Source: Loxodes magnus (taxonomy: Eukaryota > Ciliophora > Karyorelictea > Loxodida > Loxodidae). Taken from it: 64,000 nucleotides of DNA. This document shows, in pieces, positions 1,977 through 64,000 of this stretch (position 1 is the first letter of the stretch; each line of letters opens with the position of its first letter). Position numbers and translations under genes: made by a program. The DNA is taken from contig CAMPDV010000839.1 of assembly GCA_946699065.1 (NCBI GenBank), positions 1-64,000 on the forward strand, read 5' to 3'. Below the pieces are notes generated by a model. That model worked only from the letters and a program-made list of their open reading frames with translations. It had not been told where the DNA came from and did not search any database.

Positions 1977-2176
1977 AATTTAAATAAGTATAATGTTTAT
2001 TAAACAGAATATATACTTACTCACTTTAAGATGCTTATACTATATAAAAATTAATGCAGTCTTGCAAAGCAAAGATAAGTAGAAAGTATTGAACTTGGAA
2101 TTTTATTTAAGTTTTACTTAATTTTATTTAATATTTATTAAAGAGAAAAGTTTAATTTTAGAGTTTCTAAGTTATA

Positions 2177-5100
2177 TCACCAACTTGTATTTTTTTTCGA
2201 TCCAGCCAGGCTTGTTATCATGCTTAGTCCTATGTCTTCTTATGAGCGTTTTTCTTATTTCATCATAAATTACAATAACAATGAAGAAAGGAAAAGCAGG
2301 GAGACAAAAATGTTCAAATTATAAATCTCTCGTTCCAAGTCTTACTGCAATTTGTGGCTGATAACATATGAAAGCTGCTAGAACTATTTCAAAAATAATC
2401 CCTAGGTTAGCCATATTATTTTTCATTCCTTATTAAAAAAGACTCAACTTTCTAGTTTTAGCTACTAGCAAGCAACTAACTTAAACTACTACAATACTTA
2501 CAAAAAAGGCACTCTGAGCATGTCTTAATGCTTCTGTTGTATAGCAAATTGCATGACCTGAAACATACGAATCTCTATGAACTCTACATTATGACCATTC
2601 TTCATCAGCTCTATTTAAGTACCATATTCTCAGGTCATATTTATTATCTGAATCAGTTATAAAATCTACAGTATCCTACTTAGAATCAAAATTTAGAGGG
2701 TCTTCAATAACTTTTCCCATGCTTTAGAATTTCCTTTGAATCTATCTAGAGGATCATATAAATCAGTATGATGAGGTTTTATTCCTTTTTCTTTAACCAT
2801 GAAAAATAAAGTAGAAGGATAAAAGCCATAGTCATTCATTACTAAAAAGTAAGTATAAAATCCTGCACAAGCTTGGAATATTCCTATTTACATATAACTT
2901 CAATACATTAATCTTATATTAACAAGATGATCAGTAGCTGCATTTCTTGGCTTTCTTTACATAATATCAAGTTCAGAAGGCTCGTAAGCTAAAGAAATGG
3001 CAGGCCACATATTTGTTATATCAACACAAAGAATTAGAATAGTTGTAAAAGGTAAAGGAATTTAGCAGATAATGAATATAATGAAAGGGAAAAGTTCTGG
3101 AACATTGGAAGCTAATGTATACGCAATTGATTTCTTTAAGTTATCAAAAATAAGTCTTCCTTCTTCTATTCCTGCTACTATCGAAGTAAAATCATCATTT
3201 AATAGTAACATATCTGCGGCAATCTTTTGCAAAATCAGATCCTATTTTTCCCATAGCTATACCAATATCCGCTTTTTCTATCGCTGGAGAATCATTAACT
3301 ACATCACTTGTTACTGCAACTATATGTTTTAGTTTTTGACATCCTTCTACAATAATCAATTTCTGAGCAGGTGTCGTTCTAGCAAAGCTACATTCTTTTT
3401 TAAGAAGCCAACTTTCTAAAGCTTTTCCTCTTTCTTCTTCAGGTTTATTTTCATCTTTTCCACACTCTTTAGCCCAGTTTATCTCCATGAATAATTACAC
3501 ATTCTGCTTCTTCAATTGCTTAATCTTCTAATCTTTCTCTTTCAACTGGATCGTTTATTTTAGTAATATCAATTCCTTTTTCTGCAAGTACATCGAAGTT
3601 TGTTTTTCCAGTAAGAATTCCAACATCTTTAGCAATCAATTCTGCTGTACCAGGTTAATCACCAGTGATCATAATAACTTTTATACCTATGGAACGGCAC
3701 AAAGCAACAGCTTCAGGAACTCCTTGACGAGGTGGGTCCACAAAAGAAATAAGCCCAGGTGAAAATAAACTCATATCTACAAGCTTCAATTTCTAATTTT
3801 ATTTGATCCATATCGAGTTCCTAAAATTTACTCTTTGGCTAATACATATAAGCAAATCCTTAAGCTCTTTCTCCTCTTCTACCTAAGTATAAGTTAGTAG
3901 ACTTAAAATCTTCTTCCCAACTATTATCTTTAGGCATTTCTTTCTTATTTGCAAGAGCTTTAGTACAAAAAAGACCATACTTTTTCAGGAATTCCTTTCA
4001 ATAAAAATAAATAATCGTAAAGGTCTAAATTTATCTTCAATAATAGTAAGTGCATATTTATGGCTTGATGAAAATGGAATTGCTGCAGGTTAACCTTCTG
4101 TATTTAAGGCTTTTGGATATTTTCTTCTCATTTCAAGAACATCTTAAATAGGTTAGAAAAATTTGACTAAAGCATTTTCTGAAGCATCTGAGTTTACTTT
4201 TCTGTCTTTCCATTTTTTAGATTTCTCTTCTTATTCATATTATTAAGCTCTTTTAGCTTCTTCTTATTGTATCTTTTAATTATCATAATGTAAACGAGCT
4301 TTATCTTTTTCTGTTAATCCTTTTTCTGCTGGAATAGAGTAATCAAATTCTCCTTTATTATTTACTACTGCAATCACTTGTAACATTTAAAATGTTGGAT
4401 TTTCTTCGTCATATTCAGGAATTTCATTTTCATTAAGATCTTCTTTTGTAACTGCTCTAATTGGATTTTTTCTTATCATACCACATTGAACTTACAGACA
4501 TTGTATTTTGAGTTAGAATTCCTGTTTTTTCCGAGCAAATACAAGTAGTGGAGCCTAATGTCTCCACTGATTCTAAATTTTTTACAAGTACTTGCTTTTT
4601 CGCCATTCTTTGAGCAGTAAGTGTAAGAGAGACTGCTACAGTTGCTATTAAACCTTATGGGGACATTAGCTACAATAATTGCAATAGCAAATGTAAGGCA
4701 AGTAATAATAGGATAACCATAGATAAAACTTAAAACGAAAAAAACTATACCATAACTTATAGCAACAGCACTAATCATTTTTATAAAACGATTTATTTCT
4801 CTATGAAGAGGAGTTTTCTTCAGATTGAGTACTTTATGCCTTATTAGCTATTTATCCAATGACTGTATTATCTCCTATATTTATTACTATTCCTCTACAG
4901 TATCCTTCTTTACAAAGTGTACCGAAAAATGCCAGGTTTTCAGTTTCAAGTGGATTTTCAGAAGTTTACATGTGAGATCTTTTAAGAGCAAGATTTTCGC
5001 CTGTTAACGAAGAATTATCTACTTTCATATAACGAGCTTCAATCACACGAATATCCGCAGGAATTCTATCTCCTGGTCTTATTTCAACAACATCTCCTAA

Positions 5101-5938
5101 CACAATTTTTGAGGTAGGTAATTAAATCATTCTACCCTCTCGAATAACTATAGCTTATGGTGGTACAAAGTTTTTAAAGCTTGCTACGTCAGAAGAAGAT
5201 TTGCTCTCTTAATAAAAACTAAATATTCCAGTACCTAAAACAATAATGGCAATGACAACTCCTAGATATAAGTTAGTTGGATCAGAAGGAGACAATCCAT
5301 ATCCAATAAAACAAAGTACACATCCAGTCCATAGTAATAAACTAGAGAATCCAGTTAATTACTTGAAAAGTAATACATACCATGGAGTTCTAGGCTTTTC
5401 AGTTATAGCATTATCTCCATCTCTCAGCAAACGCTCTTTTACCTATTAAAATGTTAATCCTTATGAAAAATCTTCAAGTCCAAGATCTTCTAAAAGCATT
5501 TCTAAAGGTATTTTGTGATCATCCATATCTCTAAGCTTTTCATAAGCTTCTTTTCCCTTTTCTTTTTTATGTTTAACCTTGGCTTTAGGAATGTCTTTTT
5601 TTTCTTGAAGTTATTTCATTTGTTCTTAAGACTCTAATTACTACTTAAGCTTAGTAAATGTGCCAATAATATTGCTTGATTGATTTTTATCCAATTAAGG
5701 TGGTAAATCATAATCCGGAAGAGGCTGATACTCTTTCTCAAGACCTAATCCACTACTTAATCTTTTATTTAATCCAGGTTGAGCTTCTTAATCGGTAGTC
5801 TACTTATTAATAGTGCTAGATTGTTTTTTTTTGCAAACCAGTAGAGGTTTCATTATCTTATACACCATAGGTCTATTTTTAGGCTTGCGAATCTAAAATA
5901 TTCTAATTTGTATTTTGGTTAGTTTTCAGTTGTTCCAT
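2177..5938 (-). pseudogene. Broken copy of the Na+/K+-ATPase-like alpha subunit
   Basis: Reverse-strand sequence aligns end to end with the intact gene at 10216-14118, including an ATG-Glu-Gln start and the C-terminal GWIEK region. It is disabled several times over: frameshifts occur in the N-terminal A-run, around the TM4 ANVPEGL block, near the nucleotide-binding domain, after the hinge motif and near the C-terminus. Key residues are also gone. The phosphorylation loop reads CSEKTGI instead of CSDKTGT, so the phosphorylated Asp is Glu, and the hinge TGDGVND reads TSDVVND. It still has TGG at the conserved Met-Trp position after the phosphorylation site where the intact copy uses TGA, and both copies share TGA in the RLI-x-TGA block. 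A transcribed regulatory remnant cannot be excluded. Confidence 0.85.
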
Positions 5939-7267: not shown

Positions 7268-7723
7268 AATAATTGTAATTTATAATTTTGAAAGTTTCTC
7301 AGTTTAAAGCACTATTCTAGAAAATAGTTTGGTTCTATAGAACAATATTACTTATGGCTTAATAGCATTATATACAATAGCTTAATTTGATATATTATAA
7401 AAATAAGAAGCTAATTATAAAGCTAACTATAAGATTTACTAATAAATAATTAGTTAATAGTGCTTTATGCTTATTATTAGTTTTCTTTTAAATAAAGAGA
7501 TATATTTTTATAATTAAGCTAATACACTGTAATCTTCTATTTAAGTTTCAATGTATTTCATTATTTATATTACTTTAACCTTGCTTTCTATATCTTCCAT
7601 ACTAGATTATTCAACTTACTGCTAAAACCCTTTAGCTTAGAAAACAGTCAATTAAGATAGTTCAATAATGTAAATAAGGAAGGCTATATGTTTAAATCAA
7701 ATTAAAAGCTTCTTCTTTTAAAA
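7268..7723. promoter_or_regulatory. Divergent intergenic region
   Basis: About 450 bp of AT-rich DNA separates two start codons on opposite strands (MLF-like at 7267, MYND/RING at 7724), so both promoters must lie here. No specific motif is recognised. Confidence 0.4.
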
Positions 7724-8609
7724 ATGCCAGATTGCTTAACTTGCAAGGCATCTGAGGCTATAATTAAATGCCATTTTTGTAATTAACTAAAATACTGCAG
7801 TGAGATTTGCAAAATAACAGATACAGCTCATCAAAGTGAGTGCAAATACAACAAAGGCAATTTACTTTCAATAATAAATCAAATTCAGTCTCTTACTCAG
7901 CAAGATTAATCTTCTGAAATAGAAAGTAAAGATGAAGAGTTCAACGACGAATTATCATAGAATGAAATAGATCATTATGGACTCAACTCTCTTAAACTAT
8001 AACTACAAACTGCTGAAGAATAGCTTCATAGGTATAAATCCTTATACCATAAGATTTTGGACTAAAACTTCCAATTTAAAAAGCAATTGGAATCATAGCA
8101 AGCTGAAATTAACAATAAGCATGACTTATAAAAGTAACTAATAATGAAGAATGAAGAGATTTAAAGCCTTAAACTGTAGAGTAAAGAAATTTAGATCTTT
8201 AAAGGTGATCCCAATGTAATTAAAAAACTTAGCTTAAATGAGCTATAGAATTATAGTTCTTAACTACTAAAATCTCTTACATAAATCTAGCAGATTTAAT
8301 AAAGTAAACTATAAGAAGAGCAATAAAAATATTAGTAATTATAGACTCAATTATCTGATATTTATAAATGCATTATTTGTGTAAATAGAGATGTAGAAAT
8401 TCTAGCAAAGCCATGCAATCATGCTTGCATGTGTGAATTTTGTGTTTTTAAAGTTGATTCATGCCCAATGTGTAGGAAAGCTATAATCTCCACTGAAAAG
8501 ATATTTTTGCTTCGTTCTTAATTAGCTAATTTATTAAAGAATTAAGTTCTAGTTTGTATAATTTAAGTAATATGCTCATTATTTAGCAGCTTTATAGAAG
8601 TTAAATTGA
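7724..8609 (+). CDS. MYND and RING zinc-finger protein, probable E3 ubiquitin ligase
   Basis: Starting at ATG 7724, residues 4-40 form a MYND-type finger (CLTC...KCHFC...YCSEIC...HQSEC). A long Gln-rich coiled coil follows. A C3HC4 RING starts near residue 216: CIICVNRD, then CNHACMCEFC and CPMC, close to the XIAP/MGRN class. Such proteins usually transfer ubiquitin to substrates bound through the coiled coil or MYND domain. The 3' end is uncertain. With a 16-nt intron at 8552-8567 (GTTTGTATAATTTAAG) the frame ends at TGA 8607-8609, giving 289 residues. Unspliced, it runs on in very AT-rich sequence to TGA 8894-8896. I prefer the spliced model because it is compact. Confidence 0.75.
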
Positions 8610-10215: not shown

Positions 10216-13200
10216 ATGGAGCAAGAAATTACCTTTTAGAAGAACTTAACTATTATTATATAGTTTTGGTATTCTTCTAATATTTATTATATTAATCAGT
10301 AAATTGATCTTTATAACTAAACTTTTGTTTAAATCACTAAAATAATGCTAAAAGAAAAGCTAGTTTCTTAACAGGAACTGGAAGAGGAACAAAAAAGGCA
10401 GCTTTTAGTGAAGAAACGACCATTAACTATTGGAGTTTCTGGAAATGATGATTCTTAAGAATTGTAAAGAAACTTGATAAGAATTCAACATCGAACTACA
10501 GCTTAAGAAGGAACTGGAGCTTTTAGAAAGATATCAGGTTTCTATCGTCTTTTCTAAGATAGATAGCAACGTCTAGATTATGATTTAATTCCAGGATTAG
10601 ATAGAAAAACTTCAAGTCATATTGTTAGTGCTTATATTGAACTAAAATAGGAAGTAGATAATAAATTGCATATTAAATAAGTATCTGGGGATGATGAAGC
10701 TCCTAATACAAAACTAAAGTAAAAAGAAAAAAATAAAAATAAAAAAGCAGAAATTTATGAAAAATTTAGAGATATGGATGATCACAAAATTCCATTAGAA
10801 ATACTTTTCAAAAATCTTGAACTTGAAGAATTTTCTTAAGGATTAACAAATTAGAAAGTAGAGGAGCATTTGTTGAGAGATGGAGATAATGTTTTGACTG
10901 AAAAGCCTGGAACTCCATGGTATGTGCTTTTTATCAAGTAGTTAACTGGATTCTTTAGTTTATTACTATGGACTGGATGTGTGCTTTGTTTTATTGGATA
11001 TGGATTGTCTCCTTCTGATCCAACTAACTTATATCTAGGAGTTGTCATTGCCATTATTGTTTTAGGTACTGGAATATTTAGTTTTTATTAAGAGAACAAA
11101 TCTTCTTCTATTATGGCAAGCTTTAAAAACTTTGTACCACCATAAACTTAAGTTATTCGAGAGGGAAATTTGAAGTAAATAGCTGCTTCAAAAATTGCGT
11201 TAGGAGATGTTGTTGAAATAAGACCAGGAGATAGAATTCCTGCGGATATTCGTGTGATTGAAGCTCATGGAATGAAAGTAGATAATTCTTCGTTAACAGG
11301 CGAAAATCTTGCTCTTAAAAGATCTCACATGCAAACTTCTGAAAATCCACTTGAAACTGAAAACCTGGCATTTTTCGGTACACTTTGTAAAGAAGGAAAC
11401 GGTAAAGGAGTAGTAATAAATATAGGAGATAATACAGTTATTGGATAAATAGCAAATATGGCATAAAGTACTCATTCTGAAGAAACTCCTCTTCATAGAG
11501 AAATAAATCGTTTTATAAAAATGATTAGTGCTGTTGCTATAAGTTATGGTATAGTTTTTTTCGTTTTTGGACTTATCTATGGTTATCCTATTATTACTTG
11601 CCTTGTATTTGCTATTGGAATTATTGTAGCTAATGTCCCAGAAGGTTTATTAGCAACTGTAACAGTCTCTCTTACACTTACTGCTCAAAGAATGGCAAAA
11701 AAGCAAGTACTTGTAAAAAATTTAGAATCAGTGGAGACATTAGGCTCCACTACTTGTATTTGCTCAGATAAAACAGGAACTCTCACCCAAAATATTATGT
11801 CTGTAAGTTCAATGTGACTTGACAAGAAAAATCCAATTAGAGCAGTTACAAAAGAAGATCTTAATGAAAATGAAATTCCTGAATATGACGAAGAAAATCC
11901 AACTTTTTAAATGTTACAAGTGATTGCAGTAGTAAATAATAAAGGAGAATTTGATTACTCTATTCCAGCAGAAAAAGGACTAACAGAAAAAGATAAAGCA
12001 CGTTTAAATAATAATCCTTAAAGGATAGCGTAAGAAGAAAACGAAAGAGCTATGGAATATGAGATATTGGAAAGATAGAAAAAATGGAAAGAGAGAAAAG
12101 TAAACTCAGATGCTTCAGAAAATGCTTTAGTCAAATTTTTCTAACCTATTTAAGATGTTGTTGAATTAAGAAGAAAATATCCAAAAGCTTTAAATGTTGA
12201 AGATCAGCCTGCAGTAATTCCATTTTCATCAAGCCATAAATATGCACTTACTATTGTTGAAGATTGATCTAGATCTGATGATTATTTATTTTTATTGAAA
12301 GGAGCTCCTGAAAAAGTATGGTCTTTTTGTTCTAAAGCTCTTGCAAATTAGTAAGAAATGCCTAAAGATATTAGTTGGGAAGAAGATTTTAAGTCTACTA
12401 ACTTTAACTTAGGTAGAAGAGGAGAAAGAGTCTTAGGATTTGCTTATATGTACTAGCCAAAAAGTTATTTTGAGGAACTCGATATGGATAAAATAAAATT
12501 AGAAATTGAAGCTTGTAGATATGAGTTTATTTTCACAGGGCTTATTTCTTTAATGGACCCACCTCGTCCAGGAGTTTCTGAAGCTGTTGCTTTGTGCCGT
12601 TCTGCAGGTATAAAAGTTATTATGATCACTGGTGATTAACCTGTTACAGCAGAATCAATTGCTAAAGATGTTGGAATTCTTACCGGAAAAACAAACTTCG
12701 ATGTACTTGCAGAAAAAGGAATTGATATTACTAAGATAAACGATCCAGTTGAAAGAGAAAGATTAGAAGATTAAGCAATTGAAGAAGCAGAATGTGTAAT
12801 TATTCATGGAGATAAACTGGCTAAAGAGTGTGGAAAAGATGAAAATAAACCTGAAGAAGAAAGAGGAAAAGCTTTAGAAAGTTGGCTTCTTAAAAAAGAA
12901 TGTAGCTTTGCTAGAACGACACCTGCTCAGAAATTGATTATTGTAGAAGGATGTCAAAAACTAAAACATATAGTTGCAGTAACAGGTGATGGAGTTAATG
13001 ATTCTCCAGCAATGAAAAAAGCTGATATTGGTATAGCTATGGGAAAAATAGGATCTGATGTTGCAAAAGATGCCGCAGATATGTTACTATTAAATGATGA
13101 TTTTACTTCGATAGTAGCAGGAGTAGAAGAAGGAAGACTTATTTTTGATAACTTAAAGAAATCAATTGCATATACATTAGCTTCCAATGTTCCAGAACTT

Positions 13201-14118
13201 TTCCCTTTCATTATATTCATTATCTGCTAAATTCCTTTACCTCTTTCAACTGTATTAATACTATGTGTTGACGTTGGTACAGATATGTGGCCTGCCATTT
13301 CTTTAGCTTATGAGCCTTCTGAACTTGATATTATGTAAAGAAAGCCAAGAAACGCAGCTACTGATCATATGGTAACAGTAAGATTAATACATTGAGCTTA
13401 AATGTAAATAGGAATATTTCAAGCTTGTGCAGGATTTTATACTTACTTTTTAGTAATGAATGACTATGGCTTTTATCCTTCTACTTTACTTTTCATGGTT
13501 AAAGAAAAAGGAATAAAGCCTCATCATACTGATTTATATAATCCTCTAGATAGATTCAAAGGAAATTCTAAAGCATGGGAAAAGTTTATTGAAGACCCTC
13601 TAAATTTTGATTCTAAGTAGGATACTGTAGATTTTATAACTGATTCAGATAATAAATATGACCTGAGAATATGGTACTTAAATAGAGCTGATGATGAATG
13701 GTCATAATGTAGAGTTCATAGAGATTCGTATGTTTCAGGGTAACTAATTTGCTATACAACAGAAGCTCTAAAACATGCTTAATGTGCCTTTTTTGTAAGT
13801 ATTGTAGCAGCTTAAGTTAGTTGCTTGTTAGTAGCCAAAGCTAGAAAGTTGAGTCTTAGTTAGCAAGGAATGAAAAATAATATGGCTAACACAGGGATTA
13901 TTTTTGAAATAGCTCTAGCAGCTTTCATATGTTATCAGCCTCAAATTGCAGTAGGACTTGGAACGAGAGATTTATAATTTGAACATTTTTGTCTCCCTGC
14001 TTTTCCTTATTTCATTGTTATTGTAATTTATGATGAAATAAGAAAAACGCTCATAAGAAGATATAGGGTTAAGCACAACAACAAGCCTGGCTGGATCGAA
14101 AAAAATACAAGTTGGTGA
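10216..14118 (+). CDS. Na+/K+-ATPase-like (P-type IIC) alpha subunit, intact copy
   Basis: One frame of 1300 residues. P2C pumps exchange Na+ or H+ for K+ across membranes. Landmarks: a ~185-residue N-terminal extension; MDDHK at 187; TGE actuator loop near 361; [11 protein letters not shown] in TM4; the phosphorylated Asp518 in [22 protein letters not shown] near 923; SNVPELFPF in TM5; [13 protein letters not shown] in TM6; QQGMKN near the C-terminus. The end GWIEKNTSW matches animal GWVEKETYY residue for residue before TGA at 14116-14118. Three internal TGA codons (11815, 12265, 13393) are read as Trp. The first sits at the Met-Trp that follows the phosphorylation loop in all relatives, so it is sense. 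The start was chosen because ATG-Glu-Gln also opens the broken copy. The TM7-TM8 loop is longer than in animals. Transported ion not resolved. Confidence 0.93.
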
Positions 14119-14514: not shown

Positions 14515-15421
14515 AAACATCAATCTACTAATAAACATTTAAGAGGCAGAAACTATTTCATTTCGGATAAAAAAGCTAGAAAATAGTAATAGATGCTTAA
14601 GAAATACTTCTCTTGGAGATAATTTTTTTGCTAATATTGATAAAATCCTGATTTTGAAGCTTTTGCTAAATAGTAGTTTAATCTTCCTTTAGAGCTTGTT
14701 CCTTATAGAGAGTTTAAAGATTCTATTATGTTAGAATAAAATTCCATCTATAGTGGATAATGATACGCATATAAAAGAGATGGAAGAGGAGAATAAGTTT
14801 GATAAGATAATTCAAAATATGAAGGATATTGAAGAGAGATAAAGCCAATAGAAAAGCTAAACTTATTCATGCGGATATAGATTATTACGAAAGAGATTGA
14901 AAAGACGATAAAACTCATGGTATTGGATGGTATTTACATAAAAATAAAGCTAAATATTAGGCTACTGAAAATATTATAAATAAGACAGAAAAGGAATAGA
15001 AATATGATGGAAATAGTTATAAAGGAATGTATAAAGATGGCTATAATTGTGGTTAAGGTATTCTTACTTTTGTAGATGGAAGTATTTATTAAGGAAACTT
15101 TAAAGATAATGATCTTAACGGCTATGGTGTCTATAAATGATCTGATGAAAGAATTTATAGAGGAGAGTTATTAAAAATTAAAATGCATGTTCAATAAAAA
15201 TTAACATGAAAAGACAGAAGATTCTACGAAAGTGAGTATTATATGGATAAAAAGCATGATAATTAATATTCATTATAGGATATGGAATATTTTCTTAACC
15301 AGATGATAGAAAATATAAAGGTTACTGAAAAAAAGGTAAATAACATGGAAGAGGTAATTACGCAGATAAAGACAAAAGCATAAAGAAAGGAGAATGGCAG
15401 GAATGTAAAAGAATAAAGTGA
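14515..15421 (+). pseudogene. Decaying MORN-repeat protein gene
   Basis: Translation gives an N-terminal block with FSWRQFF and DFEAFAKQQF, then about six MORN repeats (patterns such as YSGQWYAYKRDGRGEQVW, YKGMYKDGYNCGQGIL and YKGYWKKGKQHGRGNY). Repeat Trp positions are often TGA, which supports TGA as Trp. Two frame breaks are seen. One is a 2-bp GA expansion in GAGAGA near 14837. The other is a 20-bp stretch ending TATAG near 15253-15272, placed like a small intron but lacking a GT donor. Several repeat glycines are changed (YYERDW, KANRKAK). MORN proteins bind membranes or scaffold cytoskeleton. It could be a live gene with unusual introns, but decay is simpler. No clear start; proposed end TGA 15419-15421. 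Confidence 0.65.
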
Positions 15422-16979: not shown

Positions 16980-19821
16980 ATGTATTCATCTTAAGAAATC
17001 GAAAGGTAGATTTAAATTCTATACAATGCTTAGGATGAGCAATAGCGCTAATTAGCAAATTCTTATTTAATAAATTTCTAAGGCTCGACTTAAGCTCTGG
17101 AAATTAGTATTTATCTAATGAACTAATCTCAAAATCCTCAGACTTTGTTTTTAGCTTCTTCAATTCTTTATTAGAAGATAAAAGAGAATGCTTTGAACGA
17201 AAATTGCTTGGATAACAAGTAATTACTCTTTGATTTAGTGTTTAACTCAAGTGGAAAGATTAAAGAGAATTATTAGCTTATTTTATAGCTTAAGTAAGTA
17301 TTGAGAAAACTATGCTAGTGCATTTCTATCCTAGCTGCTTATCATCTTTGAAACAAATGGTTCAATTTTATTGAAGACATTCTTTCTCTAAATGCTAATG
17401 TTTTTTCCTCTGAAATCATCTTAGAAATCTTAATAAGTCTTCCTTATGAAATTGATGTAGCCAATTAGCCTTACAAAATAGCAGCAAGAGTTAAAACCAT
17501 TTTACAAGATAAAAGCGACTTGATAATCTAATTTCTAATATAGTGCTTATAAAACGAAAACTTAGTTGAAAAAGCTTTAGAATTCATATACATTTGGGTA
17601 AAAATACAATTGAAATGGATTTAATCCTAAGACTTAATAAATATACTATTCTCTTTACTAGAAAACTAAAAGTTCTTCCTATAAACTTTATAAGCTTTCA
17701 CAGAAATAATTAATTATCATCAAGAATTTAGAATTATCAACTTTGGAAAAATCACTTCAGATCAGTAAATCATTAAGGTAATAAATTCAGTACCACCGTA
17801 AGAATTTACGATGTTATAACATCTGCTAAACAAGTCAGTTAACTGGCTATAATTAACAGATATATAGATTTTAAAACAAGTAGTAGAGTTAGTGGTAGCA
17901 ATAGGATCAAGCTATGATATTTACTTGCTAATTTAGAATGAATATTCTGATTTAGTTTTTAATGTTTTGCTGCATTTATGTTAATAATCAAATTTATTTT
18001 TATGTCACTTTAGTCTCGTTGAATTTTGGTACCAGTTTAAAGAAGCTTGCCAGCTGTTAAGTAATAGTGTTGTAAAGCCTCATGTCAAAGAAGTTTGACT
18101 GAAATTGACTGATTATTTGATTCAATAGTGTAGATATAGAGATGAATAAATGTTTAAAACAGCAAGTGAGAAGCAAGAATATGAAGGTGTTTTCGATAGT
18201 TTGAGTTTCGACGAATTTAGAACGACTTGTGAGGACATTTTCATATCTTCATATCATTCCCAAAAGAATTAACTTGAAAACTTCCAGAACCTTCTATTAA
18301 AGTATCATCAAGATAATGTTTCATGAGAGTATTAAGAAAGTGGATTATTCTGCTTAAGAGTAGTTCTTGGAGAGCTTGAAGAGGGTGAAAACTCAATACA
18401 GTGGTTTGCACAAGTAATTTAGCAACTTGTTCAACTAGCAACTCAGAAGCAGTTTCATGACTTGGTTCATAAGTAGTTGCTAATAACAGTAGCAGAGAAT
18501 TACTCCATAATAAAGTTCATTCAGCACAATTTTCTAATTGATTATGTATTAGAAATTTTGGAATAGCTACTAAACAGATAAGATAATTTTAATTTAAGTG
18601 GAAATATTTGCTTGTCCTTAATAAGCTTGTCCAAGAATGTTAACTTCTCAACATTACATCTACAGAAACTTCTTGATCTTTGCTCTAAATCTTATAATAT
18701 CTTTCAAATAGAAAATTCCTGCTTAATGATTGAGACGTTTTTCAATCTTTGTATAAGTAATCCAGAAATTTCATAAGAAACTTTGTTTACAACAGTAGGT
18801 TAGTTCATACCTACGAATGATCTGATATAATAGCAAGGAATCTCAAAAGGTTACAAGTGAATTGGAGCAATTTTGAGAGGATTTAACCAAGCAAATGCCG
18901 CTTAACTTTAATCTATTTTTCCAATATTTTCTGAAGTAAGTTCCTAAATGCAGCCAATTTCAGTATCAATTCAAATACTTCAAAGCATAAAAGATGATAT
19001 AAATGTGGTTGACATTTTGTGTATCTTTTTGGAGAAAGTAGTTCGAACTTTTAATATGCTCTTTGTAAGATACTAATTTAGATAAACTCGTTCTTAACTA
19101 TCTATGCTGCCATGAAATAATGTATTGAGAATAATTTAATTCCAGAAGTAATTTCTAGGAGTCTTTAAACTTTAAGCTGCTGCATTTCATTATATGGAAG
19201 TGATTAAAAAATAGGCTAGTTTTTGCTTGCTGATTATGCAAATTTAGTGAGTATTTGTGAATAAAAGATTACATTACTACAATAGGATCCTGAGGTTTTA
19301 TGTAGCTATTTCAACGTTTAGAGTAAAACAATAGAGTAAATAGGATGGAATTTAGAAGTAGAAATCCTATAAAAGCAACTAGCTCAAGCTCTTTAATCTC
19401 TTTAGTTCATAAAAGACCAGAACAAGGTAAAGCAAATAATTGAGTTAATTACTTCAATCAGTACATTTACATTGTAAAACTAGCAACTAGGAATGTACAT
19501 CTGTGAAGGAATTGTCTTACATCTTCCTTTTATTCCTCATTGGTAGCTTCATAAAGTAGCTTCAATTATAATAAATCTCAAAGAAAGCTGCACTTAGGAA
19601 TAAATCCTAAATAGTTTTAACTCAGGACTTTTGAAATTTACTTTGGAAGAAAAGGTTATTTAAAGAATATTAGCTTTAGTGTGCCAAATAAGCAACACGT
19701 AAGTAAGATGCTTGCTCAATGATATTAAGAACATTATTGAAGGATCAAGCTAGCCAGATTGTCTTTTGAGCCTGGAGATAAATTTAAAGGCAAATAAGCA
19801 AGTTCAATATGTAGAAATTGA
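16980..19821 (+). CDS. Transportin-3 / importin-13-like karyopherin
   Basis: Importin-beta superfamily nuclear transport receptor. Residues ~5-65 match the importin-beta N-terminal domain (LYNAQDEQQRQLANSYLINF, then a LASSILYQKIKE helix), followed by HEAT-type helical repeats. Internal TGA read as Trp at 17349, 18096, 18324 and 18858; 18324 gives the Trp of the W-x-x-x-E-x-x-L-F block (SWEYQESGLFCL) typical of this family. Two 17-nt introns are proposed: 19065-19081 (GTAAGATACTAATTTAG), strongly supported because helical repeats continue in the new frame, and 19761-19777 (GTCTTTTGAGCCTGGAG), weaker. The spliced product is 935 residues, against about 923 for human TNPO3. Without the second intron the frame runs on to TGA 20411. 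Cargo unknown. Confidence 0.82.
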
Positions 19822-22206: not shown

Positions 22207-22998
22207 ATGACTTGGTTTGAGTAGTTCAAAACCTAGAATTTCAGCGATACTGTAGATAGAAATTTCTTCATTATAAGAGCGCTAAGTGTGCTTGGATCCG
22301 TTATAGTCTTGATTTACTTGGCTACGGTATCAGTTAGTGACGTTCCTAATCTTTCGTTTATCTGCTATTATGATGTCTTGTTTGAAATGGTTTCAAGCAT
22401 AAATCTTTTCTTATATGATCACAAAGAATGGAATGATGCCTTCCTAATTTTAGCTCAGTGGAGTATGGATGCTTTAGGGTTAGTAACACTTATTAGATGG
22501 ATGCTATGGGCAAAGAGTTGGGACCTTATGATCTCATTAGGTCTTTTATATGGATCAAGATAAATTTGTACTATATTATTTGTTATGCAAGAGCCAGAAT
22601 ATTATCTATGGCATTATCCAGGTGCTCCTAGTTTGATGGTCAGCTATCAGCAGCAATATGATTTCTTTTATTCAGGACATATGGGTTTCGCTACTCAAAT
22701 GATTTTATATTGGAATAGATTTGAAACATCAAGATGGCACGTATGGTTGGCATCTTGGACTTGGATAGTTACTTTTATGGCAATGATATGCATGAGAGGT
22801 CATTATTCCATAGATATTTTAACTGGTTGTGCTATGGGACATTATTGCTTAATAATATCAGAACTCTACCTTAGAGAATTTATAGACAATTTTGCCATTC
22901 ACCAATTCAGAGATAAGAGTAAGAAAAAAGTTGAAAGCAATTAGGGAAGTCCTGACTAGAAAGACGAAGAAGAGCCTTTAAAGGAAAAGTCATACTGA
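22207..22998 (+). CDS. PAP2-superfamily lipid phosphotransferase, PDCT / sphingomyelin synthase-like
   Basis: 263 residues from ATG 22207 to TGA 22996-22998, intron-free, with TAA/TAG as Gln. It has several hydrophobic segments. The two catalytic blocks of the PAP2_C class are visible: FFYSGHMGF (first catalytic His) around residue 160 and RGHYSIDILTG (second His and Asp) around residue 200. Plant phosphatidylcholine:diacylglycerol cholinephosphotransferase has TRGHYTIDLAVG at this place, and sphingomyelin synthases have HYTID. Members exchange phospholipid headgroups in ER or Golgi membranes. The charged C-terminus is probably cytosolic. Upstream in-frame GTG codons are not needed because a clean ATG opens the frame. 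The exact substrate cannot be told. Confidence 0.85.
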
Positions 22999-29434: not shown

Positions 29435-31204
29435 TTGATCACAAAGCCATATTTTAAAAAAATGAGAGCTTTGTTTAATCCAAAAACACTAGCAACTCTC
29501 ACTGCTTTTGGTTTCTCAGCTTTGGTATTCCCAGAAGATAACAAAGTAAAAGTTAATCTTGGAGATTTAAGTGATTTACCTGAAAATGAAATGAAGAGAG
29601 TTCAAGTTGGTGAAAACAAAGAAAACTATATTGTAGTGCTCAAGAAGCATGGAAGAGTTCAAGCTTTTTCTGGAAAATGCTGTCACTTTGGTGCTCCACT
29701 TGATACTGGATATTTTGATGGAAAAAAAATTTGGTGTCCATGGCATTTAGCTAGATTCTGCTCATTTTCTGGAGAACTTATAGGCGGACCTGGACTTAAT
29801 TCACTTAAGAAATACAAAGTTGAAAGATAACCAGATGGATCATTCTCAGCTTTAGTAGACGAAGATTCCGCATCTGCTAGTAGAGTTTCAGCTAGAATGG
29901 CGAAACCTAATTATGAAGCTGATAAAAGAACTTTCGTTATTGTAGGAGGTGGATAAGTTGCCTAGAATGGAGCTGAATAACTAAGAAAAAGTGGCTTCTA
30001 AGGAAGAATCGTTATAATTTCAAATGAAAAGCAAGGTCCATATGATAGAATAATTCTAACTAAATCCTTGAGAGCTGAAGCTTCAAAATTAAACTTAAGA
30101 AACGAATAGTTCTACTAAGAATATGGAATTGAACTAAAACTCAATTCTGAAGCTACTTAAATTTGCGCTCAGACTAAAAATGTAGTCTTAGCAAGCGGTG
30201 AAAAGGTTCCTTTTGACAAATTATTGTTAGCAACAGGATCAAGACCTAAGATCGTACATAAGAATGTCGTTGGAAATAAAAACGTTTTCACAATAAGATC
30301 AGCTGAAGATCATAGCAACTTAAAGAGATAACTAGCTGATGCCAAAAACGTAGTTGTTGTAGGAGGGTCTTTCATTGGTATGGAAGTTGCTTGGGCTATT
30401 AAGAAAGACTTTAAAGATAAAAATGTAACAGTTTTTGAAGTTGAAGAAAGACCTTTATAACGCATTTTTGGAACTGAAATCGCTGGTTAACTTGTAGAAT
30501 TATAAAGAAGAAATGGAGTTGAAGTTCTAAATAATCAGGCAGTGAAATCTTTCAATTCTGAAAATGATGCTATTGTCTCAATTACCTACACCTTAAATGA
30601 CGAATTCAGAGGTCCAAGAGACGTAACAGTACCTGCTGATGTTGTTATCTTGGCAACTGGCTCTTAGTTAAATAGCAACTTTGTTCCTAGTTGCTTACTA
30701 AACCCAGATGGATCAGTAGCAGTCGATAGTCATATGTAGACAAACCATCCAGATATCTATGCTGCAGGAGATATTGCAAGCTACTTTTCTTTACTTACTT
30801 AGTCTTAAGAAAGAACAGAACATTGGGCAGTAGCAGGAGATTAAGCTATAGTCGCAGCTAAAAATATGCTTGATCAAGGAGTAAATTACACAAATGTTCC
30901 TTTCTTCTGGACTAATTAATGGGTTAATGCCTAATTTGTTGGATACAATAGTGGTGCAGATTGGTCCCATACTGTAACTTGCAGCGAACAAGGAGCTGAA
31001 AAAACAGGAAGAATTACATTCTTCTTTAAAGGACATAAAGTTATCGGTGCAGCTATCATAAATTGTCCAGGAGCGGCAATTAGATTGGCACTTGCCTTGG
31101 AAAATGGATTAATGCCAAGCAGAGGATAAATTTGCAATGGACAAGTGACATATTAGGATATTGTAAAGAGAGTAGAAAGCGCAAAGCAATCCTGCTGCCA
31201 CTGA
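29435..31204 (+). CDS. AIFM3-like flavoprotein: Rieske domain plus pyridine nucleotide-disulfide oxidoreductase
   Basis: 589 residues from ATG 29435 to TGA 31202-31204, intron-free, with many TAA/TAG Gln codons and no internal TGA. The N-terminus has a short basic then hydrophobic stretch that may be a mitochondrial targeting or anchor sequence. A Rieske [2Fe-2S] domain follows, with ligands Cys82, His84, Cys101 and His104 (C-x-H, 16 residues, C-x2-H; CPWH). Then an FAD-binding fold with VIVGGG near 168, an NAD-binding VVVVGGSFIGMEVA near 307 and the FAD-contact IYAAGDIA near 445. This order is that of AIFM3/AIFL and related ferredoxin reductases, which pass electrons from NAD(P)H through FAD to the iron-sulfur centre. 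It ends QSCCH. The physiological acceptor is unknown. Confidence 0.9.
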
Positions 31205-34952: not shown

Positions 34953-35510
34953 TCAAGCATCAAATTCTTTATGTACTCTGCTTGGTGTTAAAGCTGTATT
35001 CAACCTTGTGTCAGGAATTTTCTAACCCCCAACAAAACTTCCTGTAAATATATTGCTTTTTGGGTAAAATTTTTCGGGCAGATCATGGACTGCTGGTTTT
35101 AATTTTCCAAATTCTTGTGATGAAGTTTTATACATTGGATTATCTCCTTTATTTAATCCTTATTGAGGATACTAAGTTTATTCTGAACCTGGAAATTCAT
35201 ATGTAAATCCAGAAGGATTAAATGGATCAGGTATTTTTCGATATTGATCACTTGGCTTAAGTCCGGACTCCATGTCATAATACGTAGTGTCCTCTTTTCC
35301 TGTTTGAGCTATTTGCTTCTTCTTTTCTAGCAAAATTTAATGTTTTAGCACAGCAAGTCCTACCTTCTACGATTTCGCTTTGTCAGCCACTTCTTTATAA
35401 GTTGGAACCTGAACTTCTTATTTTCTAGGATCTTATCCCTGAGTAAAAATTCATCTACCACCATAATCACCATTAGTTGTAGATAAGAGAGGATTCTTTC
35501 CTTCAACCAT
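34953..35510 (-). CDS. PIERCE1-like microtubule inner protein
   Basis: 185 residues from ATG 35510 to TGA 34953-34955, intron-free, with one internal TGA as Trp (GGRWIFT). The C-terminal 60 residues match vertebrate PIERCE1 (C9orf116): YKTSSQEFGKLKPAVHDLPE, FYPKSNIFT and a final RLNTALTPSRV, against human YRTSNQAYG...APTVHEMP...FYPNSNKFS...TLNVYLEKSIV. PIERCE proteins lie inside the doublet microtubules of cilia and stabilise the tubule wall. The N-terminal part is Lys/Gln-rich with a short helix and has no counterpart I recognise. A cilia role suits the host. The start is the first in-frame ATG after an AT-rich stretch. Confidence 0.78.
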
Positions 35511-36685: not shown

Positions 36686-38023
36686 TCAAATATCATTTAT
36701 ATCAATTTCTTCCTCATCCATCTCTTTTTTAGCCGCTAGTAAATCCACTTTATCTTCAGAATTGCCTGCTTATTTCTGTTATTCTTGCTTTTGTTATTAT
36801 AGTTCTAATAATTTTTGTTTCTCTATTTCGATTTACTTCTTTTATTCTTCGATTTGTTGATTAATCAGCATCTTTTACTGCAGTTGTAGGTTATCTGTTT
36901 GATTTTCTATTTTTTACTCTTCTTGTTTAGAATTTCCATTTTAATTATTTTCCTGTCCATTTTATTTATTTCCTTCTTCTTCTTCGTCCTCGTCTTCTTC
37001 TTCTGCTTATTTTAGCCACTATAAGAGGTCTTTTGCATTAATTTGGAGATCATCCATCTAGGATTTATTGTAAAACGTATTCTTCTTAAACTTAACTTTG
37101 GAATCTTCCCACTTAAGCAAGATATTTTCAGAAAAAATTTCATTGTCAAGAAATCTTTTAAAAACGGTACTAACAAAATTAATCTGTACTGCATTATTCT
37201 TGAAGTAATGAGCCATAGCTATAAGTAAGGATTTATAAGAATATTTATAGTCGTTACATTCATCCAGTATTTAAAGTAGGTACTTATTGGTACACTTTTA
37301 TGGTAATTCATTTCCAAAAAGTACTTTGAAGATAATAAAGTATTTCAAATCCTCGTCAAAAGCTTAAGAAAGTTTAATATTTCTCATCTCTTCATATACT
37401 TTTGTATAAGGTTATTATGTCTCAACCATTTCGCTCAACCTAGCTATGCTTGTTTGAACTTCAGGGCTCTATAAAGATAAAGTTTCTAAATTTTATGTAA
37501 CTTGCAAATCTTTTTCTAAAAGATTTTCCTCTATTTGGACACCTTTTGCTTTAGTCTTAACAAATTCATGCATATTTTTCGGAGGATTTTTAATGATATA
37601 GTTAGCTGCTTTGTGTGTACTATCAAGATATTCGCGCTTTCCACAGGCATTACAATTTGAGCGCAGCAAATTTTTCTTTGTAACTTGAATGAAACTTTCT
37701 GGCAATTTGCATCGTGGGCAAAGAACGTATTTTTCGATAAATTTGTCAAGAAGTTAAATTATTCTTTATGTTGTGAAGCTTCCGTTTATAATCAATTTTA
37801 TATCTCCAGTTTTTTTATTTACAATCAAATCAGTATTAGTACATAGCTCATGTCCAAAGAACTTTAAAGGATATTCAGGAGGAATTCTCAGAGATTTAGC
37901 CACAGCTGGTAAGTTTAAAATGTTTGTTTTGATTCCATTGCCAGATCCTTCAACTTTGGTTTAAAGAGCTGGCATTTGGTATCTATAATTTGGGTCATTT
38001 ACGTAACTAGGTATGTTTATCAT
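36686..38023 (-). CDS. TIF5: Translation initiation factor eIF5
   Basis: 445 residues from ATG 38023 to TGA 36686-36688, intron-free, with no internal TGA. eIF5 is the GTPase-activating protein for eIF2 in the scanning 48S complex. The N-terminus reads IPSYVNDPNYRYQMP; Arg14 aligns with the catalytic Arg15 of human eIF5. KVEGSGNGIKT and the YPLKFFGHELC segment follow. The zinc-binding cysteines are Cys102, Cys105, Cys124 and Cys127. The C-terminal W2/HEAT domain has the acidic aromatic AA-box region (LLKWEDSKVKFKKN, then LLQWLKQAEEEDEDEEE), which binds eIF2-beta and eIF3. After it comes an unusually long Gln/Glu-rich coiled-coil tail ending DEEEIDINDI. A diverged second copy lies at 46335-47519. 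Confidence 0.93.
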
Positions 38024-46334: not shown

Positions 46335-47519
46335 TCATATCTCATCAATATTAATTTCTTCATTTTCTATTTCCTTTTTAGCTGCTAAAAGATCCCATTT
46401 ATCTTTTTAATTACTTATTTTCAAATTTTAGTTTGCTGGTTATATCTACTCTTACTATATAATAGAAATTTCCTAATCTATTTAGATTTATTTTTATTAA
46501 AGATTATGCTTTAAGATTATTTCATCTTTTTACTCTTCTTATGAATTTTAAGATTTAGCATTTAATATGTTTTCTATATTCTAGTTTTCATAAACTGCAT
46601 CTATTTCATGAAGTTATTGAATAAATTATTTCGCCTTTATTTTAAGTTTCTTCATCAAAAGACTATTATAAAGTGATTTTTTTTTTAAACTTATTTTTGA
46701 TTCTGCTCATCTCAACAAAACACTTCTGGATAAAATTTAGTTTTCAAGGAAACTTTTCAAAACAGTGCAAACAGATCTATTTTGCTCTTAATTATTTTTT
46801 TCAAAGCAATACGACATAGCTATTAGCAAAGATTAGTAGTAATACTGTTAGTCATTGCATTTTGCCAAAATTTGGAGAAGATATTTGTCAGTACATTTGT
46901 ATACTAACTCATTGTTAAATAATACGCTAAAAATTATTATATATTTCATATCTTCATCAAAAGCTTAAGAAAGTTAAAATTTTTTTATTTCCTCATGTAT
47001 TTATGTAGCAGGTAATTATCCTTTGACTTGTACTTTTAATATGTTAATTTAATCTTGTATTTTAGAATCTAATTCAATTTCTTTATGTTCTTAGTCTAAA
47101 TTTTTAGTCATAAACATTTCAATCTTTTATGTAGCATCATTTATTTATACTTTTCCACAAGCTTAGCAAACAGATTTTAGTTAATTTGTAGAAGTTATTT
47201 TTATAATAGTTTCAGGTAATTTGCATCTTTAGCAAATCACAAATTTATCAATAAATTCATCTATAAGTTTTCTGATTTGCTAGTTTGAAAATTCTCCATA
47301 TAACATCATTTATTAGGCATTTAAAATTTTAGTTTTCGTGCATAACTATATTCCAATAAACTTAAGCAAACATTACGGAGTAAATCTCAAAACCTTAGCT
47401 ATATCAGCTAAATTTAAAACATAGGTTAAGCTTTATTTGGAATATTCCTATATTTTAGTTTAAACAGCAGGCATCTTTCAGGCATAAAAACTATCTTAAA
47501 CATAGCTCGGAATATTCAT
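46335..47519 (-). CDS. Diverged eIF5 paralogue lacking the GAP arginine
   Basis: 394 residues from ATG 47519 to TGA 46335-46337, one unbroken frame. It aligns with the eIF5 at 36686-38023 along its length: start NIPSYVQD, zinc cysteines Cys96/Cys99/Cys118/Cys121, the QLSQAFDEDMKYII core and the final NEEINIDEI. The catalytic region differs: FYAWKMP replaces NYRYQMP, so the arginine finger (Arg15 in human) is Ala, and the Gly-rich KVEGSGNG loop is gone. LLRWAESK aligns with LKWEDSK of the other copy, and its Trp is TGA. It could be a non-catalytic competitor of eIF5, like metazoan 5MP, or a gene starting to decay; the intact frame argues for function. It is more AT-rich than its sister. Confidence 0.8.
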
Positions 47520-48402: not shown

Positions 48403-50910
48403 TCACAGCTTCATAGATTCCGCTTTTAGTATTTTTATCTTGTCTAGGTAGTAGTAAACAGAGACAGCTGGATAAAAAATATATTGATCAAAAGGAATAT
48501 TTCTGAAAGCAATTCCTGTATTTTAGTTTGCAAAACTAAATCGAATATATTTATCTACTGTATTAACTTCCATTGTTACATTATCATTAGGTTTAATTTT
48601 TCTTTATGAGTATTTGTACCGTTCTCCAAAATTTTGAATATCTCCATTTTCATCTAGTGAATATCCTCTAGAGTACCATGAAAAAAAGATATTTTTATTT
48701 TTCCAATCTTTATCATTTTCAGTAATTCCAATCTATAAAATCGGCGAGCTTGCACTAACTACTTAAAACTAAATTTTATACTTGAAGCCCTGCTAAAAAG
48801 GTTTTTTGGTAATTGCAGTTTTATAGCAATCATATGTACTTTTAACTGTAGTTTTATTAAAAATTTAATAAAACTTGTTAGTCAATTTATTATCAAATTC
48901 TAAATTGTACTAATTCCATTAATATATAGAATTATTTACCTCATTTTATTTTTACTTTTCTGCACTTAAAATTTAAACTTCTTCTCCCTGATAAAACATA
49001 GAAATTGCAGGATAAAAAGTAGTTGAGCTAAATGGAATATCTATATACGCAATTCCTGGAGATGTGTTTCCATACGAAAAGCTTAATAAATTCTAAGTTG
49101 TATCAATAAGCATAATTACTTAATCTCCATAAGCTATATTCCTTTATGAGTACTTCAAGGAGGTTTTATTGTTTTATAGCCATCCATCATCGTCTAGGGA
49201 GAATCCAGATTTATAATGACTAAATCTTAAGTTTTCTTAGTTCCAATTTTAGTTATTTTCTGTAATACCAATTTAAATTCAAGCCTCTTCTTAAAATTTA
49301 ACTAGAAATTTAAATTTGTACAAAAAACCTTTGAGGAGAGGAGTGGATATAATAGCTGTCTTGCTTAAGTCTTGATTGCTTTTTAAAGTATTATTATTTA
49401 TAAACTCAAAGGAATGGTGAGAAACTGTCTTATTGAAAAAAGCTTAAATCTAAACCCACTGTTCTCTTACTTTTGTTCCATTTTATTAATTCTCTTACGA
49501 GATATCTAACTAATCAAAGAAATCATATACTTCAGCTTTTAAAATATTTACTTGATCTCCAGTGTAGAACAAAGAGACAGCAGGATAGAAAAAGTCAGTG
49601 TCGAATGGAATATCTTTAAAAGCTATTCCTATATTTTCATCTTTAAAACTGAATTTGATAGTTCCTTCTATTGTATCTACTTCCATTACTACAATTTCAT
49701 CACTGTAAACATAATTCGTTGAATATTTATAGCTATAAGAACTTTTTACTATTTATCCGCTAGTCTATAATGCGTATCCTCCTTCATATCAGGCAAATGA
49801 TACATTGCTCTTTCAAGAAGCAATATTATTTGTAATTCCTATATATATTTATTAATAGTATTGATACTTTATCTTAAAATAAAACTTATATTTAAGTCCT
49901 ATGGTAATTGGAGTGTCTATGATAGCAGTTTAGAATTCAACGAATAAGCTTTTGATAGTCTAATTATTTAAAAAGTTTAGATATTTGTTACTGTATTTCT
50001 TACTAAAACTTGCCTCAATAGATTTTCATTATTTAGTTAGATTTTAGGGTTTTTAGTTCTAATTTTTTGGCTCTTATTTCCTTTTATCTTCATTTGTCAT
50101 ATTATTTTAAGTTACTTCAGCTTTCACTAATTTAACTAAATCACCTACATCATTTATTGCTATAGCTGGATAAAATGTAATATTATTGAAAGGAAGATTA
50201 GAAAAAGCAACATTCAGCTTTTAATTGCCATACTCAAATTAAATAGTATTTTTTATCGTATCAATTTCCATTGTTACTACTTATCCTGAAACTATAGCTC
50301 TTTATCCATATCTTATTTGCTTATTTTAATTTACTAAATTTCCATTATTCTTAAGAGCGTATCCTTATTTATTCTAAGAAAACTATGTCATTTCATTTCT
50401 TCAGTCCATATTATCTTCAGTTATTCCAATCTCAATATCACCTTTGTAGAAAGTTTCTATTTAAAATTAGAATCTATAAAAATAACCTTTTTTGATAGGT
50501 TTATTCAAAAGAGCTGATTTACTTTAATCAGTGTTACTTTTGAGAGTTTTATTGTTTAAAAATTGAATATATCTACAAGATTTTTTCTTATCGAACACTG
50601 TCTCCAATACTTCCCAATTTTAATTTTCACTTTAGCTTAATTAATTTTTACTATTGTTCTACTATTTTTATTAACCAAGCTATGATTCTTCTTATTTTAT
50701 AAGACCCTACTAAGGATTTGTAATGTTATAACCAGAATCAGTAAACTTATTTGTTTCATAAGCAAATACTAAACTTCCTAGAATTAAAGTCATAAGAACA
50801 AAGCCACAAAGTATCTTTACTCTCCGGTTGCTCAAACTTGTAATTTTTTCCTTTTAAAAGAATTCTTCTTATTCTTAATTAAAAGGTGTAGAATAAGTGC
50901 CCTAAAGCAT
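48403..50910 (-). CDS. Membrane-anchored protein with four tandem SPRY domains
   Basis: 835 residues from ATG 50910 to TGA 48403-48405, intron-free. Residues 31-50 (VKILCGFVLMTLILGSLVFA) form a signal anchor after a short polar N-terminus, so the repeats probably face the lumen or outside. Four repeats of about 190 residues follow. Each starts with a Trp-containing strand and a FxNNxTxKS block, then IGIT(E/N)N, a GY/GF turn, Val-x-Met-Glu-(V/I)-(D/N)-T, a GIAF...IPF strand and FYPA(V/I)S, the SPRY pattern for ligand-binding beta sandwiches. Repeat Trp positions use TGG in some copies and TGA in others (for example 50401-50403 and 50026-50028), an internal proof that TGA is Trp. Ligand unknown. 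Confidence 0.85.
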
Positions 50911-62558: not shown

Positions 62559-64000
62559 ATGGATTAATTGAAGTGTACATGCCCATAAGGCTAAATATGT
62601 CCTTAGCATTTATAAAATACTTAATCTCCTAGCAATGCTGAAGAAACTAATTAACCGACAAATCAATCAACTGAATTTGAAATTTGCTAAGAGCATGGTA
62701 ATGAAAAGAGAAATTATTGCAAAAACCATAACTAGGAGTTGTGCATTAACTGCTTACAATAAAAACATCCAAGTTGTGAAATTCTTGAAATTAGGAATAT
62801 TAAGGAAATACTAATTAAGCAATATTAAGAATAATTAAAATAGCTTGAAGACTATAAGAAATCTCAGAGGCAGAATTTAAATTATTAACTATCAACAATA
62901 GAATAAGAAATCTAAATTTAAGAAAATCTATAAAGATAGCTTTTGATTTAATTTGAGGAGAGAACCATTAGTAATATCTAAGAGTTTATTATTGATAAAT
63001 AAATAAAAATATCTTAAGAAAAAAATAATCAGATAGAAAAAAATAGAGATATAATGAAGTAATAAGAAGATTATATTTATAAAGAAATGGATAATGTAAA
63101 AAGTTAAAAGTATAAAACAACATCTGATATTACTAATCTAATACAAAATATTTAAAATATGCCTAAAAATAAAACTAAAAATCCTTTTTAAAAGAAAAAA
63201 TAAAAAGATTAATAATAGATTATTTAAGAAACCAATGAAGAAATGCTCTAATTTTTGTTTGAGAGTGAGTTAAAATATTAAACCATATAGATACAAGAGT
63301 AAAAGTCCAGTTTTTAATAGGAGCTTTAATAAAAAAAATTATAGCTAAAATAAAATTAGAAGATAAGTGAATAATAAGAAGAAAATTATTAAGTCCAAAG
63401 CAGCAATTAATATCAGAACACTATTTAAATTCAAGATGATAATTCTATAATGTACTTAGAGAGCTATTAACAAATGGAAGATAAATAAAAAATATGCTTT
63501 TTGGAATAATAAATTAAGTAGTTAAAATTGAACTACACGAAGAACATTGTTCATAGATTTGAGTATAAGTCTAATAAACTTCATACCTATTGCCATGAAA
63601 ATAATATATATAAATGCTTATAAATTGATTAAGAAGTACCAATTTTTCATAGAAGTATTTAACATTTAGAGAAATTCTATTTAATCGGCGGAGAAGTTTC
63701 GAATAGTTAAAACCAAATCGAATCAAGTAATAAAGTATATGAAGTGGATTATGATGGTAGATCCAAACAGCTATCAAATCTTAATCAAGCTAGAAGCAGT
63801 TGCGGAGTAACTGTAGCAAAAGATACCATCTTCGTAGTAGGAGGAACTTTCTTTAGCTAAAGCATTCACTAAACTAATAAGAATAAAAAATGCATTGATA
63901 ACGTAGAAAGTTTGGATATCAAAGGAAACGATAGATGAAAAATTTGTTCGTCTCTACCAATAAAACTGAGAAACATGACTTTAGGAAGTGACAAAGAGGA
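62559..64000 (+). CDS. B-box, coiled-coil and Kelch-repeat protein (TRIM-like), 3' end outside window
   Basis: ATG 62559; 480 codons visible, one internal TGA as Trp. A Cys-rich start (CTCPQGQICPQH) is followed at ~40-75 by a B-box zinc finger: ICQEHGNEKRNYCKNH and LCINCLQQKHPSC. Next is ~250 residues of Gln/Lys/Glu coiled coil. From residue ~365 Kelch-type blades begin: FYLIGGEV, a YEVD strand, LNQARSSCGVTV and IFVVGGT, then a DRWKICSSLP strand whose Trp is TGA, at the place where Kelch repeats carry a conserved Trp. This layout occurs in ciliate and protist TRIM-like proteins; no RING is seen at the N-terminus. Kelch propellers bind protein partners. Confidence 0.82.

Follow-up and report, generated by a model that had tools for sequence, protein, structure and literature searches.

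Background

The genetic codes closest to the one considered here are NCBI table 27, found in Loxodes magnus and Parduczia sp., and NCBI table 28 of Condylostoma magnum, in both of which UGA can be either sense or stop. A dual-meaning codon within a single nucleus is a test of how ribosomes distinguish sense from stop, and the account given by Swart et al. 2016 (PMC4967479) is that tRNAs win by default and that eRF1 wins close to the poly(A) tail. Here we analyse a stretch of 64,000 nucleotides (nt) of genomic DNA (contig CAMPDV010000839.1, positions 1 to 64,000; hereafter the window), starting from a Na,K-ATPase alpha-like gene that contains in-frame UAA, UAG and UGA codons and ends at UGA. 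As judged from the sequence by homology, UAA and UAG are sense codons in the window and internal UGA is tryptophan, and the window is very probably nuclear DNA of a karyorelictean, Loxodes-like ciliate using NCBI code 27.

The karyorelict code was named in a 2022 paper, as cited by PMC11441545. In L. magnus, UGA and UAA, not UAG, are depleted ahead of the stop, the modal intron length is 17 nt, as compared with 15-16 nt in heterotrichs, and the G+C content is 33.5% in coding sequence (CDS) and 18.6% in the 3' untranslated region (UTR) (PMC11441545).

The Na,K-ATPase alpha-like gene and its sister copy

The Na,K-ATPase alpha-like gene (copy A, 10216..14118, +) consists of 1300 sense codons without a frame shift, followed by a TGA stop at 14116-14118, and it keeps the catalytic motifs. 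Most of its length can be aligned with Na,K-ATPase alpha (phmmer E 7e-270), and it scores 1048 bits against the TIGR01106 model. An earlier note on this DNA had claimed that the gene reads through TAA, TAG and three TGA codons, and the count bears this out: the frame from 10216 contains 34 TAA, 11 TAG and 13 TGG codons together with internal TGAs at 11815, 12265 and 13393 (codons 534, 684 and 1060). Over 10744-14115 these three TGAs are the only ones in 1124 codons of the true frame, and the other five frames hold 14, 14, 15, 17 and 60. The start at 10216 is putative, because homology with the animal proteins begins only at about residue 160-170. The end is matched closely in the phmmer alignment to a PDB chain, where residue 1298 of 1300 pairs with residue 1019 of 1021, in agreement with the claim that the gene stops at TGA where the animal protein ends. 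The G+C content falls to 21% in the 150 bases past the stop, compared with 31% in the gene.

The TGA at 11815..11817 (+) aligns with Trp in all three PDB chains with alignments shown; this Trp belongs to the conserved motif HMWFD and follows the phosphorylation loop. The sister copy has TGG at this position, so that the placement described in the earlier note is confirmed both by the PDB chains and by comparison of the copies. When six residues were tried at the ATPase TGAs against TIGR01106, Trp gave the highest score.

The sister copy (copy B, 2150..5811, -) is decayed, with nine 1-base insertions within the gene and the catalytic DKTGT changed to EKTGI; neither the insertions nor the change of the catalytic Asp is present in copy A. 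The ratio of the proportions of nonsynonymous and synonymous differences (pN/pS) between the copies is 0.59 over 1122 aligned codons, a value to be expected with constraint on one copy but not on the other. Each of the 12 TGG codons of copy A that can be aligned is TGG in copy B as well, and copy B likewise has TGA at the position of 13393, although the adjacent codons differ. The nine insertions in copy B, noted over 2150-5560 (-), mostly extend runs of a base and stand against one single-base deletion, which is an odd bias; the deletion was spotted by eye, the script having listed insertions only. The two copies also share long identical stretches, which suggests gene conversion or an effect of assembly.

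Internal UGA codons across the window

Pfam and PDB searches of window segments yielded seven genes that are intact and have a clear end, namely the ATPase, a PAP2_C/lipid phosphatase-like gene (22207..22998, +; 12 TGG; stop TGA at 22996-22998), an AIF-like gene with Rieske and Pyr_redox_2 domains (29462..31204, +; 7 TGG; stop TGA), a PIERCE/CFAP182-like gene, two eIF5 genes and a gene for a SPRY-repeat protein. Together they hold 3853 sense codons, among them 11 UGA (0.285%), 41 UGG, 143 UAA, 46 UAG, 55 CAA and 21 CAG; for these counts the SPRY gene was taken from 50457 and not from the longer start at 50793, and the PAP2 and AIF-like genes begin one codon ahead of ATG. The in-frame counts make UAA and UAG sense codons in all seven genes, a result that bears on sense and not on the residue inserted. 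The 11 internal UGAs are spread over four of the genes, and the PAP2, AIF-like and first eIF5 genes have none. Scored against the residues in homologous columns, the 11 UGA sites give 34.0 for Trp, 10.7 for Tyr, 3.0 for Phe and -23.0 for Cys. In this score, the homologue residues for the ATPase, PIERCE and eIF5 sites were entered by hand from the alignments, and the importin-like, Kelch and MORN sites described below are omitted.

The two eIF5 genes provide a comparison within the window. Copy 1 (36686..38023, -), which matches human eIF5 in the PDB search with E 3.4e-45, lacks internal TGA and ends EEIDINDI-TGA, and copy 2 (46335..47519, -) carries sense TGAs at 47480 and 46709 and ends EEINIDEI-TGA. 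The UGA at 46709 corresponds to a TGG-encoded Trp in copy 1, and the residue is also Trp in human eIF5. With dN 0.425 and dS 1.88 (nonsynonymous and synonymous divergence), the estimates show a pair that is evidently under purifying selection. The two genes lie about 9 kb apart, with 178 residues identical over 393 aligned codons, and copy 2 is the more AT-rich.

The SPRY gene (48403..50793, -; four repeats, 796 sense codons, stop TGA) has five sense TGAs, at 50403, 50028, 49815, 49791 and 49281. In a mechanical alignment of the repeats, three of the five share a column with TGG of a sister repeat, compared with a random mean of 0.09 and none as high in 20000 draws; by eye, a fourth lies one gap off a Trp column. 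The four tandem repeats are preceded by a signal-peptide-like start, MTLILGSLVFA, recognised by eye. The PIERCE/CFAP182-like gene (34953..35510, -), a ciliary protein whose best PDB match is from Tetrahymena, has one sense TGA at 35453, within the part aligned to Tetrahymena CFAP182A, and a TGA stop near the homologue's end; its internal UGA falls on a Phe column, in a stretch where the alignment is of low confidence.

Three further genes, which lie outside the seven, also carry internal UGA. An importin-13/transportin-3-like gene (16980..19064, +), with weak but clear phmmer matches in PDB (E 4.6e-6 and 3.1e-5), has sense TGAs at 17349, 18096, 18324 and 18858, of which 18324 is Trp in both human IPO13 and TNPO3 and 18858 lies beyond the aligned part. 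A MORN-repeat gene (14740..15406, +) is decayed by frame shifts, and six pieces of it, picked by motif, contain nine in-frame TGAs, all nine of which fall on MORN Trp positions when judged by eye against the MORN consensus. The MORN Trp positions are occupied by nine TGA, one TGG, one TAA and no TAG, and random decay from UGG is therefore a poor account of them. In the first piece, Pfam MORN was detected only with UGA read as Trp (five residues tried). At the end of the window, which cuts it, a Kelch-repeat gene (63501..63998, +) has a TGA at 63936-63938 on a Kelch Trp; Trp is the best of five residues tried with Kelch_1 (the others being Arg, Ser, Gln and Cys), and the region has no match in PDB. 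Through the eIF5, SPRY, importin-like and MORN genes and the 11-site score, the reading that the earlier note had drawn from the ATPase, in which UGA is Trp as well as stop and UAA and UAG are Gln, is supported well beyond that gene.

Gene ends, candidate introns and base composition

UGA is the terminal codon of every one of the seven intact genes, and the internal UGA closest to a stop in these genes is 124 codons upstream. TAA is absent from their last 20 codons (0/140, compared with 143/3713 elsewhere; Fisher p 0.0045), and the depletion persists when only Gln codons are considered (p 0.020); among internal windows drawn at random, 0.35% contain no TAA. TAG occurs three times in the same 140 codons, in two of the seven genes, at codons -13 and -18 from the stop of the PAP2 gene and at codon -16 in the AIF-like gene. 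The corresponding figure for TGA, 0/140, is uninformative, as about 0.4 would be expected.

A candidate 17-nt GT-AG intron, GTAAGATACTAATTTAG (19065..19081, +), would connect the importin-like frame with the open frame that follows, as proposed from frame continuity alone. The frame beyond it shows no importin in PDB at E up to 10 and no meaningful Pfam family, and the codon-score scans list no segment for it; the intron stays a candidate because this downstream frame lacks importin homology. An IPO9-type HEAT match in the same frame (E 0.004) was weak, disappeared with a longer query and was rejected. Further 17-nt intron candidates, by frame only, lie at 32.3-32.7 kb. Chaining exons with a simple script yielded no additional intron at the chosen penalty. 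An unnamed gene at 32122-33633 (-) has candidate introns of 17 to 19 nt, again by frame.

The window is 75% AT. In the ATPase, PAP2, AIF-like and PIERCE genes, the G+C content is 31-36% in the CDS and 21-23% after the stop.

Other features of the window

Remnants of a reverse-transcriptase element lie at 1-1200 and 53588-54195 (+), the first with an RVT_1 match and many in-frame TGAs; they are 65% alike in DNA over 302-972. An open frame at 6622-7276 (-) has a good codon score and a TGA end and is without a Pfam match, and a short direct repeat (63 bases, 83%) lies at 56469-56683. The codon-score scans return many weak segments, and since the reversed sequence reaches 31.8, weak segments were not counted as genes. 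Pfam scans of further segments were empty for four of ten and six of ten, and of a third ten, eight had no match up to E 0.05. A search for relatives in viral contigs gave nine pattern matches, none of which was confirmed.

Discussion

The account we favour for the window is that UAA and UAG are translated as glutamine within genes, that internal UGA is translated as tryptophan, presumably because a tRNA-Trp wins over eRF1 there, and that UGA near the 3' end acts as stop, where the proximity of the poly(A) tail presumably gives eRF1 the advantage. By analogy, the mechanism of Swart et al. 2016 would be the best account here too. The taxon, the tRNA and the role of the distance to poly(A) are drawn from published work on ciliates, and the taxonomic placement is indirect because the window contains no rRNA, tRNA or transcript. 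That a karyorelict is favoured, as the earlier note had argued, is supported by the depletion of UAA and not of UAG in the last 20 codons and, more weakly, by the candidate 17-nt intron. The source may simply be Loxodes itself.

Several observations weigh against this reading. Internal UGAs also fall on columns that are not Trp. In the ATPase only one of the three TGAs (11815) is on a conserved Trp, 12265 being in a variable column (Ala, Glu and Pro across three PDB chains) and 13393 in a Met column in animals, and in some more distant P-type ATPase models, such as TIGR01647, Trp is not the top residue. The UGA at 47480 in eIF5 copy 2 corresponds to Tyr in copy 1 and in human eIF5; in the importin-like gene, 18096 is Tyr in both human proteins and 17349 is Pro or Met; and the column of 49281 in the SPRY gene holds Asp, Gln and Ile. 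With ten residues tried jointly at the five SPRY UGAs, the Pfam SPRY model ranks Arg, Gln, Lys or Ser above Trp (W 124.0, R 132.6, Q 131.2, C 124.3). As regards the taxon, ARAGORN found no tRNA in the window, an Rfam scan of the window gave no match and hence no rRNA, no intron in the window has homology on both sides, and the coding G+C of the two eIF5 genes and the SPRY gene (24-30%) is below that of the other four genes. Finally, one gene may end at UAA, a possible exception to UGA as the only stop.

This last case is a RING gene (7688..8521, +; start approximate), in which a coiled coil and a MYND-like part were recognised by eye. Its apparent end is the TAA at 8519-8521. The alignment with XIAP extends to KIFL/KIFM, a single residue short of the end of the XIAP chain, and the gene reads KIFLLRS-TAA there; in frame, no TGA follows until 125 codons downstream, across TAA-rich sequence of 17-26% G+C. 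UGA is found at seven of the eight gene ends that could be judged, and the statement in the earlier note that TAA and TAG are not needed as stops holds for those seven and not for the apparent end of the RING gene. Either UAA still stops there, or this is a decaying copy whose stop has gone, or a short intron shifts the reading to a different frame that ends at TGA; the intron choices were examined by eye only. We regard it as unlikely, if worth entertaining, that UAA keeps a residual, context-dependent role as stop, being Gln inside genes, eliminated from the final 20 codons and terminating at least one gene, the RING gene. Under that reading UGA would be dual, UAA dual to a weak degree and UAG wholly sense, making the code a step between that of Condylostoma, in which three codons are dual, and table 27 in its strict form. 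If the UAA exception is true, a dual code would be seen changing codon by codon.

Among the rivals to code 27 in a karyorelict, the one that survives best, although we consider it improbable, is the Condylostoma type of code (table 28), in which each of the three codons is sense within genes and a stop towards transcript ends. The apparent TAA end of the RING gene would fit such a code, and so would the lack of TAA in the last 20 codons, which is expected if UAA still terminates there. The prevalence of UGA at the judged ends does not fit, nor does the presence of TAG 13, 16 and 18 codons ahead of the stop in two of seven genes; in C. magnum such a codon 24-66 nt upstream is reported for only 16 of 1672 transcripts (PMC4967479). 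Sense UGA makes up 0.285% of codons here, compared with 0.042% in C. magnum in the same source. A weaker point against it is that the single candidate intron, supported by frame evidence only, is 17 nt long and not 15-16 nt as in heterotrichs.

The same code has been inferred for the syndinean dinoflagellate Amoebophrya sp. ex Karlodinium veneficum, with UAA and UAG as Gln and UGA as Trp and sole stop (PMC6394959), and its genome is more AT-rich than those of other Amoebophrya (PMC12005148). An origin of the window from such an organism is nevertheless very doubtful. CAA is the top Gln codon there (PMC6394959), whereas TAA is the top one in the window; four dynein rows give 52.67-57.05, taken as AT% (PMC6394959), compared with 75% AT here; and the MAKER genes average 2.6 exons (PMC12005148), whereas the seven window genes are open over their matched parts. 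The top match of the CFAP182-like protein is from Tetrahymena, although PDB may hold no dinoflagellate homologue.

Still less probable is a Tetrahymena type of code (table 6), with UGA as the only stop and the internal UGAs as nonsense mutations in decaying copies. The window does contain decayed copies (ATPase copy B and the MORN gene), and TGG to TGA is a single transition. However, ATPase copy A is intact over 1300 codons, unlike copy B with its insertions and altered catalytic Asp; the SPRY, PIERCE, eIF5 copy 2 and importin-like frames are open and yet carry UGAs; and 11 internal UGAs sit in open, conserved genes. Copy B itself retains 12 of 12 alignable TGG codons and has a TGA matching the one at 13393 although the flanking codons have changed, and neutral decay of TGG should yield TAG as often as TGA, whereas the MORN sites include no TAG. 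That internal UGA stands for another residue, as for Cys in Euplotes or for selenocysteine in selenoproteins, is the least credible of all, since Cys scores -23.0 against 34.0 for Trp over the 11 sites and loses in TIGR01106 and Kelch_1; in the Pfam SPRY scan it ties with Trp (124.3 and 124.0).

We return to code 27 in a karyorelict and to how the window compares with the described systems. The window resembles the table 27 organisms L. magnus and Parduczia sp. in having UAA and UAG as Gln, internal UGA as Trp and UGA as stop, and L. magnus in the depletion of UAA, and not UAG, before the stop, in its AT-rich flanks, in the composition of four of the seven genes and in a candidate intron of modal length. 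The share of sense UGA is 0.120% in Parduczia (PMC4967479), compared with 0.285% in the window; the single apparent UAA end is a possible difference from table 27, and otherwise none is clear. Condylostoma magnum is alike in its context-dependent UGA and in UAA and UAG as Gln, and unlike in that UAA and UAG are also stops there, whereas TAG occurs close to stops in the window. Amoebophrya sp. ex K. veneficum differs in that its 3' UTRs are longer, its genes have more exons and its genome is apparently less AT-rich (PMC6394959, PMC12005148). The code is a rare one that is already known, NCBI table 27, and the window is an independent case of it from raw genomic DNA, in which the code is readable from 64 kb without transcripts.

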